64,000 bases of DNA. It comes from Clostridium sp. Lineage in GTDB: Bacteria > Bacillota > Clostridia > Clostridiales > Clostridiaceae. Below the pieces are notes generated by a model, which did no database searches, was not told the origin of the DNA, and was given only the letters and a program-made list of their open reading frames with translations. The DNA lies in NCBI GenBank assembly GCA_031292145.1, contig JARLHR010000009.1:1-64000 (forward strand). The letters are read 5' to 3'. Numbering within the stretch: position 1 is the stretch's first letter; each line of letters opens with the position of its first letter. Both the position numbers and the translations under genes were made by a program. Positions 4,834 to 60,428 of this stretch are shown one piece after another.

Positions 4834-5787
4834 ATGCAAAAATATGTTGTAGGAGTAGATTTAGGAGGTACTAAAATTAGTACTGCATTATCTAATTTGA
4901 ATGGAGAAGTAATAAGCCAAACTACAGTGCCAACAAACGCAAATGAAGGAGAAATTCCTGTATTAAATAGAATTATAGAATCTATAGAAAAAGTAATTAA
5001 AGATGGCTCAGCAAGCTATGATGAAATAAAAGGAATTGGAATAGGTTCACCAGGACCTTTAGATGCTGAAAAAGGAACTATAATTTATACGCCAAATCTT
5101 CCGTTTAAAAACTTTAATTTAGTTGAACCAATAAATAAAAAATTTGGATTGCCTGTTTTTTTAGATAATGATGCAAACGTTGCAGCTATTGGAGAGTATA
5201 TGTTTGGAGCAGGAAGAGGAGCAAAACATGTAGTGTTCTTTACAGTAAGTACAGGAGTAGGTGGAGGAGCCGTATTAAATGGAAAAGTATACAGGGGACA
5301 TACTTCAAATGCTTTAGAAATTGGACATATGACAGTAGCGCCAGATGGTCCAAGATGTAATTGTGGAAATATTGGTTGTGTGGAAGCAACATCATCAGGA
5401 ACTGCAATTGCTAAAAGAGGTCAAGAAGCATTAACTACTAAGGTTGAAACTTCACTAAGAAAGTATGAAACTGTTACTTCCTATGAAGTATTTACAGAAG
5501 CTGCAGCGGGAGATCCAGTTTGTAAAGATATAATCAGCAATGCATTAAATTATTTGGGAATAGCTGTTGCTAATGCAGTATCTATTTTTGATCCAGAAGT
5601 AATAATAATTGGTGGTGGAGTATCAAAGGCTGGAGATATTGTATTTGATACAGTAAGAAAAGTTGTTGATAAGCGATGCTTTAAATCAATGGCAGAATCA
5701 GTTAAAATTGTTCCAGCAGGATTAGGCACAGATGCAGGTGTAATAGGAGCTGTGGCATTAGCTCTACTTGAAACAGAAGGCAAATAA
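4834..5787 (+). CDS. glcK: ROK-family glucokinase
   Basis: A 317-residue cytoplasmic sugar kinase that makes glucose-6-phosphate from glucose and ATP at the entry of glycolysis. The N-terminal phosphate-binding motif DLGGTK is at residues 9-14 and is followed by GIGSPGPLD, DNDANVAAIGE, the STGVGGG loop, ALEIGH and the ROK zinc-binding cluster CNCGNIGCVE near residue 175. The length is typical of Firmicute GlcK. The ATG has GGAGAG upstream. It is monocistronic as far as can be seen, with terminator hairpins downstream. ROK proteins also include repressors, but there is no N-terminal HTH here, so a kinase is the right call. Confidence 0.93.
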   Translation: MQKYVVGVDLGGTKISTALSNLNGEVISQTTVPTNANEGEIPVLNRIIESIEKVIKDGSASYDEIKGIGIGSPGPLDAEKGTIIYTPNLPFKNFNLVEPINKKFGLPVFLDNDANVAAIGEYMFGAGRGAKHVVFFTVSTGVGGGAVLNGKVYRGHTSNALEIGHMTVAPDGPRCNCGNIGCVEATSSGTAIAKRGQEALTTKVETSLRKYETVTSYEVFTEAAAGDPVCKDIISNALNYLGIAVANAVSIFDPEVIIIGGGVSKAGDIVFDTVRKVVDKRCFKSMAESVKIVPAGLGTDAGVIGAVALALLETEGK

Positions 5788-26427: not shown

Positions 26428-27612
26428 ATGAAAAAAATAATTAGTGTATTAATACCAGTAATAATTGCTGTTTTTGCAACAGTTGCATTAAATTCATTTT
26501 TAGATAATAAAATAGAAATTTTAACTAAGGAAAAAGATATTAGTGTAATGGGAAAGATGCGTTTTGATACGGTAAAAGACAAAAGCTCATTAGATAAAAA
26601 ATTATTGTCCGATAAGGGAGATTTATTTTTACTTGGATCTTCTGAACTTGGAATAAGTGTTCCGCAAAATCCACTGGATTTTTTCCCGTTTAAGGGTGTT
26701 GATTATAATTTGAGTTGCTTTGGAAGACCATTTGTCCAAGATTTACAACAGACTGCATATTTAGGCGGAGGAGATATACAAGATGAGCAGAAAGTAGTTT
26801 ATATTCTCTCAATTCAATGGTTTGAAAATGCAAATGGACTAGATCCAGATCAGTTTGCAGCTAACTTTTCAGAAGTACAATTTTATAATTTCTTAAAAAA
26901 TTCAAAAATAAGTGAAGAAAATAAACGATATTATGCACAAAGAGTATATGATTTTTTAACAAAAGCCAAAAAAAATGACCCAGAAGCTTATTATGCAAAA
27001 CTATATTTGGATTCAAGTGCGCTTTCAAGTGTTCAGAAGGTTTTACTTAAGCCATATTATGAAATTAAGCAGTATTTGTTAAGTGTTCAAGATAAAGCAT
27101 TAATTTATCAAAAACTCAAAGACTTACCAGATAAAAATTCTGGACAAACATTGAGAGATGTAAATTGGAATGATGAATATGCACAAGTTGAAAAAGATAA
27201 TGAAAGAATTGTATCTACAAATCAATTTAATTTAGAGGATAAACTTTATAGTCTGACTCTAAAAGATAATATTGATAGTCATAAGGGAGAATCTAATAAT
27301 GAAAATCTCATAGCGTCAAAGGAGATGGATGACTATAAGTTTTTTCTAAGCGTATGTAAGGATCTTGGTATAAAACCATATATAGTAATACCACCAGTTA
27401 ATGGATGGTATTATGATTTTGAGGGACTTACTAAAGATAAAAGAGAAGAATGGGATGAAAAAGTAAATAAAATCGCAAAGAATAATGGTCTAGATGTTCT
27501 TGATTTGCAAAGCTATGATTATAAAAAGAATTTTTTAATAGATACGAAACATTTAGGAGAAGAAGGGTGGCTTAGAGTAAGTGAAGGAATTTATAAGCAT
27601 TTTAATAAATAA
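26428..27612 (+). CDS. dltD: DltD-like D-alanyl transfer protein
   Basis: 394 residues with one N-terminal membrane anchor (about 5-24) and an extracytoplasmic SGNH-hydrolase-like domain. The serine motif is GSSELG near residue 71, and the Asp/His pair is DTKHLGEEGW near the C-terminus, the DltD arrangement. In characterised systems DltD works with DltB outside the membrane to move D-alanine onto teichoic acids. GAGGTTGTTACGTA precedes the ATG. It comes first in this locus, not last as in the usual dltXABCD order, and no dltA or dltC is present in the window. Confidence 0.9.
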   Translation: MKKIISVLIPVIIAVFATVALNSFLDNKIEILTKEKDISVMGKMRFDTVKDKSSLDKKLLSDKGDLFLLGSSELGISVPQNPLDFFPFKGVDYNLSCFGRPFVQDLQQTAYLGGGDIQDEQKVVYILSIQWFENANGLDPDQFAANFSEVQFYNFLKNSKISEENKRYYAQRVYDFLTKAKKNDPEAYYAKLYLDSSALSSVQKVLLKPYYEIKQYLLSVQDKALIYQKLKDLPDKNSGQTLRDVNWNDEYAQVEKDNERIVSTNQFNLEDKLYSLTLKDNIDSHKGESNNENLIASKEMDDYKFFLSVCKDLGIKPYIVIPPVNGWYYDFEGLTKDKREEWDEKVNKIAKNNGLDVLDLQSYDYKKNFLIDTKHLGEEGWLRVSEGIYKHFNK

Positions 27613-27634
27613 TAAAGAGTTGAAGAGAGGTACA

Positions 27635-27721
27635 ATGCTAACAATTGCATTAGTCGTAATGTTATTGGTTTATTTTTTTCAATCATCATCAGATTTGCCA
27701 TTTGTTTATAGTCAATTTTAA
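27635..27721 (+). CDS. dltX: DltX-like membrane microprotein, 28 aa
   Basis: A short ORF 22 bases after dltD encodes MLTIALVVMLLVYFF, then QSSSDLP and the terminal hexapeptide FVYSQF. One hydrophobic helix plus a C-terminal F-x-Y-x-x-F is the signature of DltX, whose tail in Bacillus and Lactobacillus reads FIYNEF and whose tyrosine is implicated in D-alanine transfer. GAGAGG lies four bases before the ATG; an in-frame TTG 15 bases upstream is an alternative start. It is shorter than typical DltX (about 45-50 residues). Its location between dltD and dltB strongly supports the assignment. It is missed by normal length cut-offs. Confidence 0.7.
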   Translation: MLTIALVVMLLVYFFQSSSDLPFVYSQF

Positions 27722-27908
27722 TTATTATATCAATGTTTATAGTATTGAATAGTGGTAAATAAACATATAAAGTTTATAACTTATGTATTGTACAAGTTTA
27801 AATATATATCTTAGTTTATATTAAATAAAATATATTAAGTTATCACTTTGATTTTTATTGAGTAATGCTGTAAATGAAAAGTATTAATAATTTAGATTAT
27901 ATAAATGA

Positions 27909-28073
27909 TAAGGCACAATCAAATAAATAACAAGTCCATTTGCCAGACTATTTTCCATCATACTGCGTCGGCAAATTGACCTAATAGGCCCGCTATGAGG
28001 GCAATTTGTCTCCTTGTCTGATAAAAAATAATCATGGCAACTTTGGACTTGTTATTTATTTTCATGTGCCTAA
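27909..28073. repeat. Family A repeat, full copy (dltX-dltB gap)
   Basis: The ends are TAAGGCACAATCAAATAAAT at 27909 and TTATTTTCATGTGCCTAA to 28073, with inner arms ACAAGTCC and GGACTTGT. The core, in inverse orientation, carries AGACAAGGAG and CATAGCGGGCCTATTAGG. It is one of the best-preserved copies, with no ORF. It splits the dlt operon; the rest of the gap (27722-27908) is featureless AT-rich DNA. Confidence 0.85.
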
Positions 28074-28106
28074 GATTGACAGAAAGAAACTTATGGAGGA
28101 ATTAAA

Positions 28107-29270
28107 ATGTTAGTTGAATATGGAGATTACTTTTACTTATATATACTTGCAATTGCATTGATACCAGCTATTATTTTAGGGCTTTTAGAAAAGAATATTA
28201 AATATTATGGAGTCTTTATATCTATTTTGATGATATTAGCAATAATGGGAATAGGAAAGGTATTTCCATTATTTTTGGTCGGCGAAATCGCTTTAATCAA
28301 AGTATATTCTATTTTAAGAAAAAAAACAGACAATAAGTATTTATACTACTTTATGTTATTTTGTTCAATGTTACCAGTAATTATTCTCAAAGTTAGTGGT
28401 GCAGTTAGTGTAAAAACTATTGGATTTATAGGTCTTTCATATATGAATTTTAAAGCTATTCAAATGATTATTGAAATATATGATGAAAATATAAAAGAAG
28501 TTAATATACTAAATACGATATATTTCTTTATATTTTTTACAACATTAACTTCTGGTCCAATAGATAGATCTAGAAGATTTGAAAAGGACTTAGAAAAAAA
28601 AATAAGTAGAAGTGAATATATTAATGATTATCTGGACTTTGGTGTGAAAAAAATAATCAGAGGTATAATATATAAATTTGTTATAGCCAATTTGATTAAT
28701 TCGTTATGGATGAGTCAAATTCCATCTCTTATAGGAATTAGTGCAAGATCAGTAATTCTTAAATATTCTATAAATTATATGTATTCGTATAGTTTGTATT
28801 TATTCTTCGATTTTGCAGGATATACAGCTTTTGCAGTTGGTACAAGTTATATTTTAGGTATTAAAATGCCAGAAAACTTTAATAAACCTTTCTTAAGTAA
28901 GGATATGAAGGAATTTTGGACTAGATGGCATATATCACTATCTAAATGGTTTGGAGATTACATATACTCAAGATTTGTATTAAATAGTATGAGGAAGAAA
29001 AGATTTAAGAATAGATTTATTGCATCTCATATAGGACAATTATTAACAATGTTTATTATGGGAATGTGGCATGGTTTGAAATGGTATTATATAATATATG
29101 GAATATATCAAGGCTTAGCATTAGTTGCAACTGATATATATCAAAGAAAATCAAAATTCTATAAAAATCACAAAAAGGAAAAATGGTTCCAATATATGCA
29201 AGTAGTAGTCACATTCCATATAGCATGTTTTGGATTGCTGTTATTCTCGGGATATTTATATAATAATTAA
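28107..29270 (+). CDS. dltB: DltB-like membrane-bound O-acyltransferase
   Basis: A 387-residue MBOAT protein with about ten or eleven transmembrane helices. The MBOAT core motifs are LTSGPIDRSRRF, the EFWTRWHISLS signature and GMWHGLKWYY with the conserved catalytic histidine. It is the channel-forming acyltransferase that takes D-alanine from the DltC carrier to the outer face. TATGGAGGAATTAAA lies before the ATG. It is separated from dltD/dltX by a family A repeat but has no promoter visible in between, so it is likely co-transcribed. Confidence 0.9.
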   Translation: MLVEYGDYFYLYILAIALIPAIILGLLEKNIKYYGVFISILMILAIMGIGKVFPLFLVGEIALIKVYSILRKKTDNKYLYYFMLFCSMLPVIILKVSGAVSVKTIGFIGLSYMNFKAIQMIIEIYDENIKEVNILNTIYFFIFFTTLTSGPIDRSRRFEKDLEKKISRSEYINDYLDFGVKKIIRGIIYKFVIANLINSLWMSQIPSLIGISARSVILKYSINYMYSYSLYLFFDFAGYTAFAVGTSYILGIKMPENFNKPFLSKDMKEFWTRWHISLSKWFGDYIYSRFVLNSMRKKRFKNRFIASHIGQLLTMFIMGMWHGLKWYYIIYGIYQGLALVATDIYQRKSKFYKNHKKEKWFQYMQVVVTFHIACFGLLLFSGYLYNN

Positions 29271-29537: not shown

Positions 29538-30407
29538 ATGAGTGGTACAAATTTGGAAGAAAAAATAAAGTTATTGATACACCTTATAGTTAAAATTAAA
29601 AAAGATGATGTATTTGCATTAGCATCTCAGTTAGCATATTATTTAGTATTATCGTTTTTTCCGTTTATGATATTTTTGATGACGTTAATAGGATTTAGCA
29701 GTTTTAATTCTGGTCAAATATTGGCACAGTTAAGTGTTATGTTGCCAAAAAGTATATTAGAATTAACAAAATCAACTGTGAGGGAAGTATTTGATAACCA
29801 GTATAGGGGATTGCTGGGAATATCTATCTTGTTAATGGTATGGACAGCATCATCAGCATTTAAAGCCGTAATTAAAAGCGTAAATAAAGCTTATAATCTT
29901 AAAGAAAACAGATCATTTGTTAAACTTTCAATTATTTCAATGATAGGGATTTTGGCATTGGCGATAACTATCATGCTGGCTTTAATATTATTAGTATTTG
30001 GGAATGTAATAGACCAATATATTGAATCGGTTTATCCGTTCTATAAAATAATGTCAATCCTTTGGAATATATCTAGATACTTTTTTATAATAATTATTAT
30101 GGTATGTATATTTATAGGAGTTTATAGATTTGCTCCAGCTCAAAAACTTGTATGGAAAGAAGTGATTCCGGGTTCAATATTTAGCACAATAGGATGGATA
30201 TTATTATCTTTTGGATTTTCATTTTATATTGATAACTTTAATAATTATGCTAGACTTTATGGGAGTCTTGGTGCTGTATTCATACTTATGACTTGGTTAT
30301 TTTTGATATCAGTAATATTTATTTTAGGAGTAGAAATAAATTGTGTTACAACAGAATTTAAAAATAAAAATAAAGCTTATTCGCTTAAGGCACAATCAAA
30401 AAAATAA
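29538..30407 (+). CDS. YihY/BrkB-family inner-membrane protein
   Basis: 289 residues with about six transmembrane helices. Family marks are ASQLAYYLVLSFFPFMIFLM near the N-terminus, WTASSAFKAVIKSVNKAYN, YRFAPAQKLVWKEVIPGS and GSLGAVFILMTWLFLI. The family was once annotated as ribonuclease BN, which is wrong; its function remains unclear. The last residues SLKAQSKK and the stop are encoded by the left end of a family A repeat (TTAAGGCACAATCAAAAAAA), so the native C-terminus has been replaced. GGTGGTTAA is before the ATG. Confidence 0.9.
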   Translation: MSGTNLEEKIKLLIHLIVKIKKDDVFALASQLAYYLVLSFFPFMIFLMTLIGFSSFNSGQILAQLSVMLPKSILELTKSTVREVFDNQYRGLLGISILLMVWTASSAFKAVIKSVNKAYNLKENRSFVKLSIISMIGILALAITIMLALILLVFGNVIDQYIESVYPFYKIMSILWNISRYFFIIIIMVCIFIGVYRFAPAQKLVWKEVIPGSIFSTIGWILLSFGFSFYIDNFNNYARLYGSLGAVFILMTWLFLISVIFILGVEINCVTTEFKNKNKAYSLKAQSKK

Positions 30408-30503
30408 CAAGTCAATCCGCTAGTCTATTTACCGTCATACTTCCTTGTCTGACGGAAAATATACATCGCATATTGGACTTGCTATTTTCTTTCATGTGCC
30501 TAA
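30386..30503. repeat. Family A repeat overlapping the YihY stop codon
   Basis: It runs from TAAGGCACAATCAAAAAAAT at 30386 to TTTCTTTCATGTGCCTAA at 30503. Inner arms are ACAAGTC/GGACTTG and a partial core (CTTCCTTGTCTGACGG). Its first 22 bases are translated as the end of the YihY protein. Confidence 0.8.
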
Positions 30504-32251: not shown

Positions 32252-32623
32252 ATGATTATTGGAATTGGTACCGATATAATTGAAATAAATAGAATAGAAA
32301 AGGTAATAAATAGAACAAAGAGTTTTATAGAAAAATCATTTACGTATAGGGAAATTGAGTATTTTAATTTACATGGGTTTAGAGGGAATGTAATAGCAGG
32401 AAATTTTGCTGCTAAAGAGGCGGTCAGCAAAGCCTTAGGAACGGGATTTAGGGGCTTTGGGTTAAAGGATATTGAAGTGTTAAGAGATGAGCTGGGAAAG
32501 CCAATTGTGTATTTGAGTGATAATATTTATAGAATATTGAATATTAAAGATTTTAATATTCATGTTAGTATTTCACATAGCAAAGAAAATGCAATAGCCT
32601 ATGCAGTTATGGAGGTAATATAA
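32252..32623 (+). CDS. acpS: Holo-[acyl-carrier-protein] synthase
   Basis: 123 residues. It transfers 4'-phosphopantetheine from CoA to ACP serine. Signature motifs are GIGTDIIEINRIEK with the metal-binding Asp8, FAAKEAVSKALGTGF with the metal-binding Glu, and a VSISHSKENAIAYAV C-terminus. It is the usual AcpS length. GAAAGGCGATAAAT precedes the ATG. Its last base is the first base of the nnr ATG, so the two are translationally coupled. The acpS-nnr-ydcC-mazEF order is a conserved Firmicute block. Confidence 0.96.
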   Translation: MIIGIGTDIIEINRIEKVINRTKSFIEKSFTYREIEYFNLHGFRGNVIAGNFAAKEAVSKALGTGFRGFGLKDIEVLRDELGKPIVYLSDNIYRILNIKDFNIHVSISHSKENAIAYAVMEVI

Positions 32624-40853: not shown

Positions 40854-41129
40854 AAGGCACAATTAAGAAAATAATAGACCAATATGCTTGTCTATTTTGG
40901 GCCATAAGGAAGCACGACTCGTATACACTCGTTGAGTAGTAAGTGATTCACACAAAATCATAGATTTTGGTTCTCTACTCACGTAAGCAAGTTCTGTTAA
41001 TAGGCTTGTTATGAGCAGAATTTGCTTCCTTGTCTGGCTCAAAATATACACATTAAAAAAGAGCAGTTATGCTGCATGTACGAACATCTCATCGCATCTT
41101 TGGTCTATTATTTTTTTTCATGTGCCTAA
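40854..41129. repeat. Family A repeat, longest copy
   Basis: AAGGCACAATTAAGAAAATA at 40854 and TTTTTTTTCATGTGCCTAA to 41129, with inner arms ATAGACCAA/TTGGTCTAT. It carries the inverse core (AATAGGCTTGTTATGAGCAG, TTCCTTGTCTGG), the GTGTATATTTTG and GCAGCATAAC blocks shared with the 60204 copy, and an extra 90-base segment with TTGAGTAGTAAGTGATT. There is no ORF. The remaining 155 bases before the next gene hold a TATAAT at 41255 with no good -35 box. Confidence 0.8.
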
Positions 41130-60203: not shown

Positions 60204-60408
60204 TTAGGCACATGAAAAAAAATAATAGACCAAAGATGCTATGAGATGTTCTTATATGCAGCATAGCTGCTCTTTCTTAATGTGTATATTTTGTACCAGA
60301 CAAGGAAGCAATTTATGCTCATAGCGGGCCTATTAGCTTAAATTGCTGACGCAGTATGGTGCAAAATAGACGAGCATACTGGTCTATTATTTTTTTGATT
60401 GTGCCTTA
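60204..60408. repeat. Family A repeat, full copy upstream of dnaE
   Basis: TTAGGCACATGAAAAAAAAT at 60204 and TTTTTTTGATTGTGCCTTA to 60408, with inner arms AATAGACCA and TGGTCTATT. The modules in order are an AGATGC/GCAGCATAGCTGC hairpin, GTGTATATTTTG, AGACAAGGAAGC, CTCATAGCGGGCCTATTAG and GACGCAGTATGG. This is the reference copy I used for comparison. It ends 21 bases before the dnaE start. Confidence 0.85.
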
Positions 60409-60428
60409 TCATAAGGAAGGAGGATTAC

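Follow-up and report, generated by a model that had tools for sequence, protein, structure and literature searches.

A DltX of ordinary length in a Clostridium dlt cluster that keeps dltD and dltB without dltA and dltC

According to work in other species, D-alanine carried by DltC is transferred by DltB to the tyrosine in the tail of DltX, which hands it on to DltD (PMC12148441). A further account reports the complex and calls the actual role of DltX unclear (PMC11035591). DltX has been shown to be required for D-alanylation in B. thuringiensis, in a paper which also states that the small frame before dltABCD is often overlooked in annotation (PMC5541007). In L. plantarum, DltC is primed by AcpS (PMC9338922). 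Of 185 Pfam-listed proteins of the family, all but two were reported to be encoded immediately upstream of dltA (PMC3783018). The C. difficile operon is named dltDABC in a paper whose main text contains the word dltX 0 times (PMC10642750). Titles and abstract openings of the open-licence literature gave us neither a dltX between dltD and dltA in clostridia nor a dlt pathway split over two sites, from which absence in print does not follow.

Here we analysed a stretch of 64,000 nucleotides of a Clostridium sp. genome (contig JARLHR010000009.1 of assembly GCA_031292145.1), called the window below. Its forward strand carries dltD, for the D-alanyl transfer protein (26428..27612; PF04914, E 6e-97), and dltB, for an MBOAT protein (28107..29270). 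DltD scores 322.1 bits against the equivalog model TIGR04092 (cut-off 150) and matches the solved DltD 6pfx at E 5.9e-21, while DltB scores 481.5 bits against the equivalog TIGR04091 (cut-off 375) and matches the solved DltB 6bug at E 3.9e-83; both are thus over their cut-offs. Sugar-nucleotide genes (DegT type and UDP-sugar dehydrogenase) and a BrkB-type gene flank the site. Further downstream lies a gene for an acpS-type phosphopantetheinyl transferase (32252..32623, forward strand), assigned by PF01648 (E 3.8e-15) and by synteny, since such a gene neighbours this dlt site in many relatives. The spacer ahead of dltB contains a dispersed repeat of about 165 nt (27861..28080, no strand assigned), which also matches itself reversed (27911-28071, 74%). 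Further matches to it occur in the window (30386-30503, 41089-41129, 60204-60244 and 60287-60412), on other contigs, among them C252 (L052 4683-4849, 93%), and in loci of other species; two short pieces are found at L051 5972-6127, about 2 kb from dltA.

Between dltD and dltB, the sequence-only reading had described a 28-codon gene for a DltX-like microprotein almost half the usual length. The 28-codon ATG frame is present (27635..27721, forward strand), has dltD on one side and dltB on the other, encodes a single hydrophobic stretch and ends in FVYSQF directly before a TAA stop. It is, however, the 3′ portion of a 46-codon frame, dltX, which runs from a GTG at 27581 to 27721 on the forward strand and shares its first 32 nt with the end of dltD. 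The apparent shortness came from a misreading of the start codon, the product conserved across homologues being 46 residues long.

To compare starts, we used 59 genus genomes, that of the window among them, and a named genome collection (8 loci), and fetched the surroundings of the matches. Of the 59 genus genomes, 27 contain a relative of DltD (E up to 1e-20), at 41 places in total. The window and 39 loci were then scanned with a pattern for short frames that end in the tail, which returned 37 homologues, sequences with identical last 150 bases being entered once; as the scan demanded at least 20 open codons, the openness of these frames follows partly from the scan. An earlier, looser pattern had also flagged four unrelated frames (in L057, L059, L068 and L082), which were not counted, and had failed to pick up the copies in L074 and L075 (tail HFIYNQF), which inspection revealed. 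The loci L074/L075, L071/L072 and L043/L054 are near-copies of each other.

A start codon (ATG, GTG or TTG) that yields 44-49 residues is present in all 37 distinct homologues, window included, although in five of them (L070, L074, L077, L079 and L081) TTG is the sole start in that range. By contrast, a start exactly at the 28-codon place occurs in 5 of 37 (ATG in the window, L053, L054 and one of the two L062 copies, GTG in L082), and a like-for-like count, which accepts any start within a six-codon span (26-31 codons), gives 8 of 37. GGGTGG or GGATGG, read by eye from the list, precedes the long start in 35 of the 37 homologues; L064 and L070, where dltX lies upstream of dltD, have neither. 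In the window the corresponding Shine-Dalgarno-like stretch (27560..27570, forward strand) falls within the dltD codons for G-W residues. The mean Shine-Dalgarno energy is -8.3 kcal/mol for the long start, -3.1 for the 28-codon place and -2.4 for background, although the bases before the long start double as dltD codons and the coding of dltD itself may keep them. The window itself shows the reverse order, with -9.2 kcal/mol for the internal ATG and -7.5 for GTG 27581, the latter close to the 5th percentile (-7.4) for stretches drawn at random from the window.

The good match before the internal ATG could mean that initiation takes place only at 27635 and that the 28-residue product is the working form. 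We consider this very unlikely. Besides the rarity of a start at this place among homologues, the codons upstream of the ATG are themselves constrained: codons 11-18, which lie outside the dltD overlap, have a pooled pN/pS of 0.50, as compared with 0.41 for codons 19-46. Moreover, the 28-residue product would be without the net positive N-terminus that precedes the helix in 37 of 37 homologues. The 28-codon gene model was rejected on the infrequent start, the upstream constraint and the Shine-Dalgarno match that is weak there on average. The internal ATG might instead supply a second, 28-residue form next to the 46-residue DltX in a small clade, given that the window, L053, L054 and one L062 copy share it and that the Shine-Dalgarno match is strong in L054 (-7.9 kcal/mol) as it is in the window. 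However, L053 (-2.9) and that L062 copy (-2.4) have weak matches, and 32 of 37 homologues have no start at this position, which makes two products an unlikely arrangement. We know of no role for a shorter form of DltX. The 46-residue frame is the reading we follow below.

Selection on this frame was estimated from 19 pooled sequences, window included, over codons 11-46, which lie outside the dltD overlap. The coding frame has a pN/pS of 0.44, the lowest of the six frames, and 0 stops, with the reservation that the pairs compared are not independent. The remaining five frames range from 0.49 to 1.22 and contain 18 to 104 stops; the closest competitor is an antisense frame, at 0.49, but with 48 stops. 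Single pairs can be much less constrained than the pool, with ratios of 0.96 for the window and L053 (few changes) and 0.88 for the window and L079.

P40, F41, Y43 and F46 are invariant in the aligned rows. The tail (27701..27718 in the window, forward strand, directly 5′ of the TAA) reads F-[IV]-Y-[NS]-[QE]-F in all 37 homologues, as a scan that required such a tail would favour, and the preceding residue is P in 36 and H in one. The sequence-only reading had named free variation of tail and stop among close relatives as evidence against the gene, and no such variation was seen, again with the scan itself requiring the tail. A profile built without the tail columns, and trained on the very homologues it then found, gave 37 strong matches over the 39 loci (E up to 1.1e-12), every one of which ends in F-x-Y-x-x-F-stop, and one further weak match without a tail. 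That the frame is open by chance draws some support from the motif, which is not rare at the ends of short open frames in this AT-rich window: F-x-Y-x-x-F ends two of them, against a mean of 0.83 and a maximum of 4 in 60 first-order Markov sequences. The stricter PF[IV]Y[SN][QE]F, a post hoc pattern derived from the relatives, occurs once in the window and in 0 of the 60 sequences. However, place, length, tail and stop are conserved in the relatives examined and the strongest constraint is in this frame, so that chance is almost certainly not the explanation. It is conservation, rather than the motif alone, that carries the case for a real gene.

The 46-residue protein has its hydropathy maximum (1.90) at residues 17-35, behind the positively charged N-terminus, and we infer that the N-terminus is cytoplasmic and the tail outside. 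Its family could not be named by direct search. The Pfam DltX model PF12459 does not match the window protein at E up to 10; searched against the window's own genome, with all 121 candidates scored, it returned nothing at the window site, and it exceeded its cut-off in 0 of the 59 genus genomes. With looser settings, and up to 100 candidates scored per genome, weaker matches (E up to 0.01) were found in at least 11 of the 59, one of which (in G018) falls on the DltX of that genome. Of 21 rows compared with PF12459, six reached E up to 10, the best at 4.6e-4, and the window protein was not among these; the 28-residue piece itself was one of the 21 rows. Sequence searches of Pfam, NCBIfam and PDB did not yield a family name that could be used for this protein, and no solved chain matched it at E up to 10. 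An apicomplexan microprotein model matched 8 of the 21 rows (window protein E 0.022, 15.2 bits, cut-off 27), and we discarded this as a match between hydrophobic helices.

A link to recognised DltX came from more distant genomes. Among 249 sampled genomes of the phylum, seven have DltD, namely the window's own and six others, and those six are exactly the ones in which a DltX exceeds the Pfam cut-off, while E 0.01 is reached in 18 of the 249. Four of these six outgroup genomes (G061, G182, G213 and G289) have a DltX frame that begins within the 3′ end of dltD, by 38 nt in three of the four, given a 50-codon start; the other two (G197 and G302) have the order X-A-B-C-D. Profile-profile alignment by hhalign of the 37 genus sequences with the six Pfam-recognised DltX, which spans 46 columns, has a probability of 94.9% and an E-value of 4.4e-8 for a single comparison. 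The hhalign match, the shared overlap with dltD and the failure of Pfam together suggest that the window gene is the DltX of a diverged lineage, out of reach of the Pfam model. The identification as DltX proposed from sequence alone is thus well supported by the tail, the topology, the adjacency to dltD and dltB and the profile link to Pfam-recognised DltX. The accompanying idea that such genes are missed by length cut-offs holds in that Pfam does miss this one, but length is a poor cause, since the PF12459 model has just 43 positions; divergence of sequence is the likelier reason. Very probably, then, the window gene encodes a functional DltX of normal length, 46 residues, with the shuttle role. 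Elsewhere, genome G219 has, near a contig end (L145 133-417), a frame that ends PFIYNQF and matches the Pfam DltX model below its threshold (18.7 bits); no DltD was found in that genome at E up to 1e-20.

The position of the gene, after dltD and not before dltA, had also been read as unusual. The statement is true of the window site, but it does not mark an oddity, because in most complete clusters X precedes A wherever A is kept. The commonest order among the complete clusters seen in the genus is dltD-X-A-B-C, in some cases with an extra dltD ahead, and one complete cluster, L070, is ordered X-D-A-B-C. As dltX is upstream of dltD in L064 and L070, its overlap with the dltD 3′ end is common but not universal. 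Across 34 relative loci, X lies within 2.5 kb and on the same strand in 33 of the 34 dltB matches, and in the 34th, L070, it is just upstream of dltD. Five of 40 dltD matches have no adjacent X: the extra copies ahead of the cluster in L074, L075 and L083, a dltD that stands away from its cluster in L077, and the dltD of L078, a short contig where a search for dltB found none. In L083, a weak DltX-like frame without tail (ending at 5687, E 1.4e-4) follows just after the extra dltD and is perhaps a decayed copy.

In the window cluster, dltA and dltC are absent and D-X-B is retained. The absence of dltA directly before dltB was recorded for 12 of the 42 rows of a DltB tree, window included, and X is present in all 12 loci. 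The tree, rooted at its midpoint and with bootstrap values of 81-83 at several forks near the window clade, needs five changes of the dltA label, four of which are forced by well-supported branches, which implies either repeated loss of dltA or its loss and later regain. The window gene is an ordinary-length DltX at the ordinary place for the genus, in a cluster minus dltA and dltC, and the claim of an unusually small protein fails.

A dltA and a dltC are found at a second site of the same genome, on contig C198. Its DltA, the best of the genome, scores about 550.7-550.9 bits against the equivalog TIGR01734, just under the cut-off of 559.85, and 560.8 bits against the subfamily model NF003417, over the cut-off of 476. 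Its DltC is over both equivalogs (NF003464, 76.4 bits, cut-off 68; TIGR01688, 58.5 bits, cut-off 52.35) and is the only DltC-family match of the genome at E up to 1e-6. Roughly 200 nt separate the two genes, a stretch that contains no dltB, and neither dltD nor dltX was found upstream of them. No other DltA-like match above 33% identity was found in the genome at E up to 1e-60. The C198 site adjoins an ABC transporter pair, and complete operons occupy the equivalent place in L071, L072 and L073; relatives such as L056, L058, L061 and L063 carry complete dltDXABC at the window-type site. Two further D-X-B clusters, L055 and L057, show neither set of neighbours within the stretch fetched. The assembly consists of 282 contigs with 4.6% contamination; the one-contig genome G051 nevertheless shows the same split, as does G027, each with one DltD, one DltB and a DltA beside DltC without dltB. 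In G027 (L133), between dltA (to 3319) and dltC (from 3577), 29 residues that match DltB (62% identity, E 2.4e-7, six short stretches searched) are probably a deletion scar; the same stretch of the window's genome and of G051 gave no DltB match at E up to 1. When plasmids were searched for DltD, nine records came back, each under 60% identity and none from this genus.

Both sites hold complete operons in relatives, and the simplest account is complementary decay of two operons. It is likely that two complete ancestral operons decayed in this way, the window site keeping D-X-B, which forms the unit for transfer at the membrane, and the other keeping A-C, the unit for supply from the cytoplasm, and that D-alanylation in this small clade runs on a hybrid of paralogous operons, with DltC and DltB from different lineages. 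The second-site DltA and DltC would then serve the window DltB. The cluster might also move another acyl group, or decorate another polymer, unconnected to the distant dltA-dltC pair; the adjoining sugar-nucleotide genes, which recur in relatives, would fit such a duty, and in G050, G032, G038, G023 and G005 a D-X-B set stands besides a complete operon, suggesting a separate duty of the extra copy there. However, the window DltB and DltD are well above the NCBIfam cut-offs for D-alanylation equivalogs, relatives carry the complete operon at this very site, and the genome offers no alternative DltA or DltC to the C198 pair within the thresholds given above. We regard a different duty as quite unlikely, and D-alanylation by the two sites together as the preferred reading.

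By analogy with the systems described above, we propose the following scheme for D-alanylation in this genome. DltX would be translated from GTG 27581, overlapping the end of dltD, and is predicted to have a short positive cytoplasmic N-terminus, one membrane helix and FVYSQF as an outside tail. It would form a complex with DltB and DltD, the products of the flanking genes. DltB would transfer D-alanine from the carrier DltC onto the tail tyrosine Y43, and the tail may then hand it to DltD, from which it would reach teichoic acid. DltA and DltC would be supplied by the second dlt site, which is on another contig and without D, X and B. We considered whether the window DltB has a shuttle tail fused to it, and ruled this out: the protein ends GYLYNN and is without a C-terminal F-x-Y-x-x-F. 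A separate DltX fits the scheme, given a DltB that carries no tail itself.

In the stretch L052 8034-12506 of contig C252, the same genome encodes a second MBOAT, of 532 residues, with the shuttle motif fused at its own end (FMYAQF). It adjoins a 467-residue protein without a Pfam or NCBIfam match and a DltA-like adenylation enzyme (299.6 bits against TIGR01734, cut-off 559.85), with a pectinesterase-like gene upstream; a DltC-family search found nothing on this contig. Fused tails have been linked with acyl-CoA donors (PMC12148441), and for this reason the ligase beside a fused-tail MBOAT is noteworthy.

Since the DltX lineage of the genus escapes the Pfam model, studies of dlt genes in clostridia may pass over a gene on which D-alanylation depends in B. 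thuringiensis (PMC5541007). The split clusters amount to a natural experiment, in which dltA and dltC are absent and X stays with B and D in 12 of 12 loci; this retention agrees with the prediction of a model in which DltB, DltX and DltD form a complex. Of these results, the complementary split of two operons holds more interest than the identification of the gene. If the two halves cooperate, the DltC of one operon lineage would serve the DltB of another, and the interface between carrier and MBOAT would become testable by comparison.

The window DltX resembles the DltX of Bacilli and other groups (PF12459, formerly DUF3687) in its length of about 50 residues, positive N-terminus, single hydrophobic helix, F-x-Y-x-x-F tail and dlt neighbours. 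It differs from that of Bacilli in that its gene overlaps dltD rather than opening a dltXABCD operon, in that its dltA and dltC are at another site, and in being unrecognised by PF12459. The PatA-type MBOATs have the same tail motif and, according to PMC12148441, use the same acyl-tyrosine step; there the motif is fused within the MBOAT, whereas in the window system it is on a separate protein. Finally, dltXABCD of Bacilli and dltDABC of C. difficile (PMC5541007, PMC10642750) comprise the same genes as those described here, but the window genome divides them between two sites.
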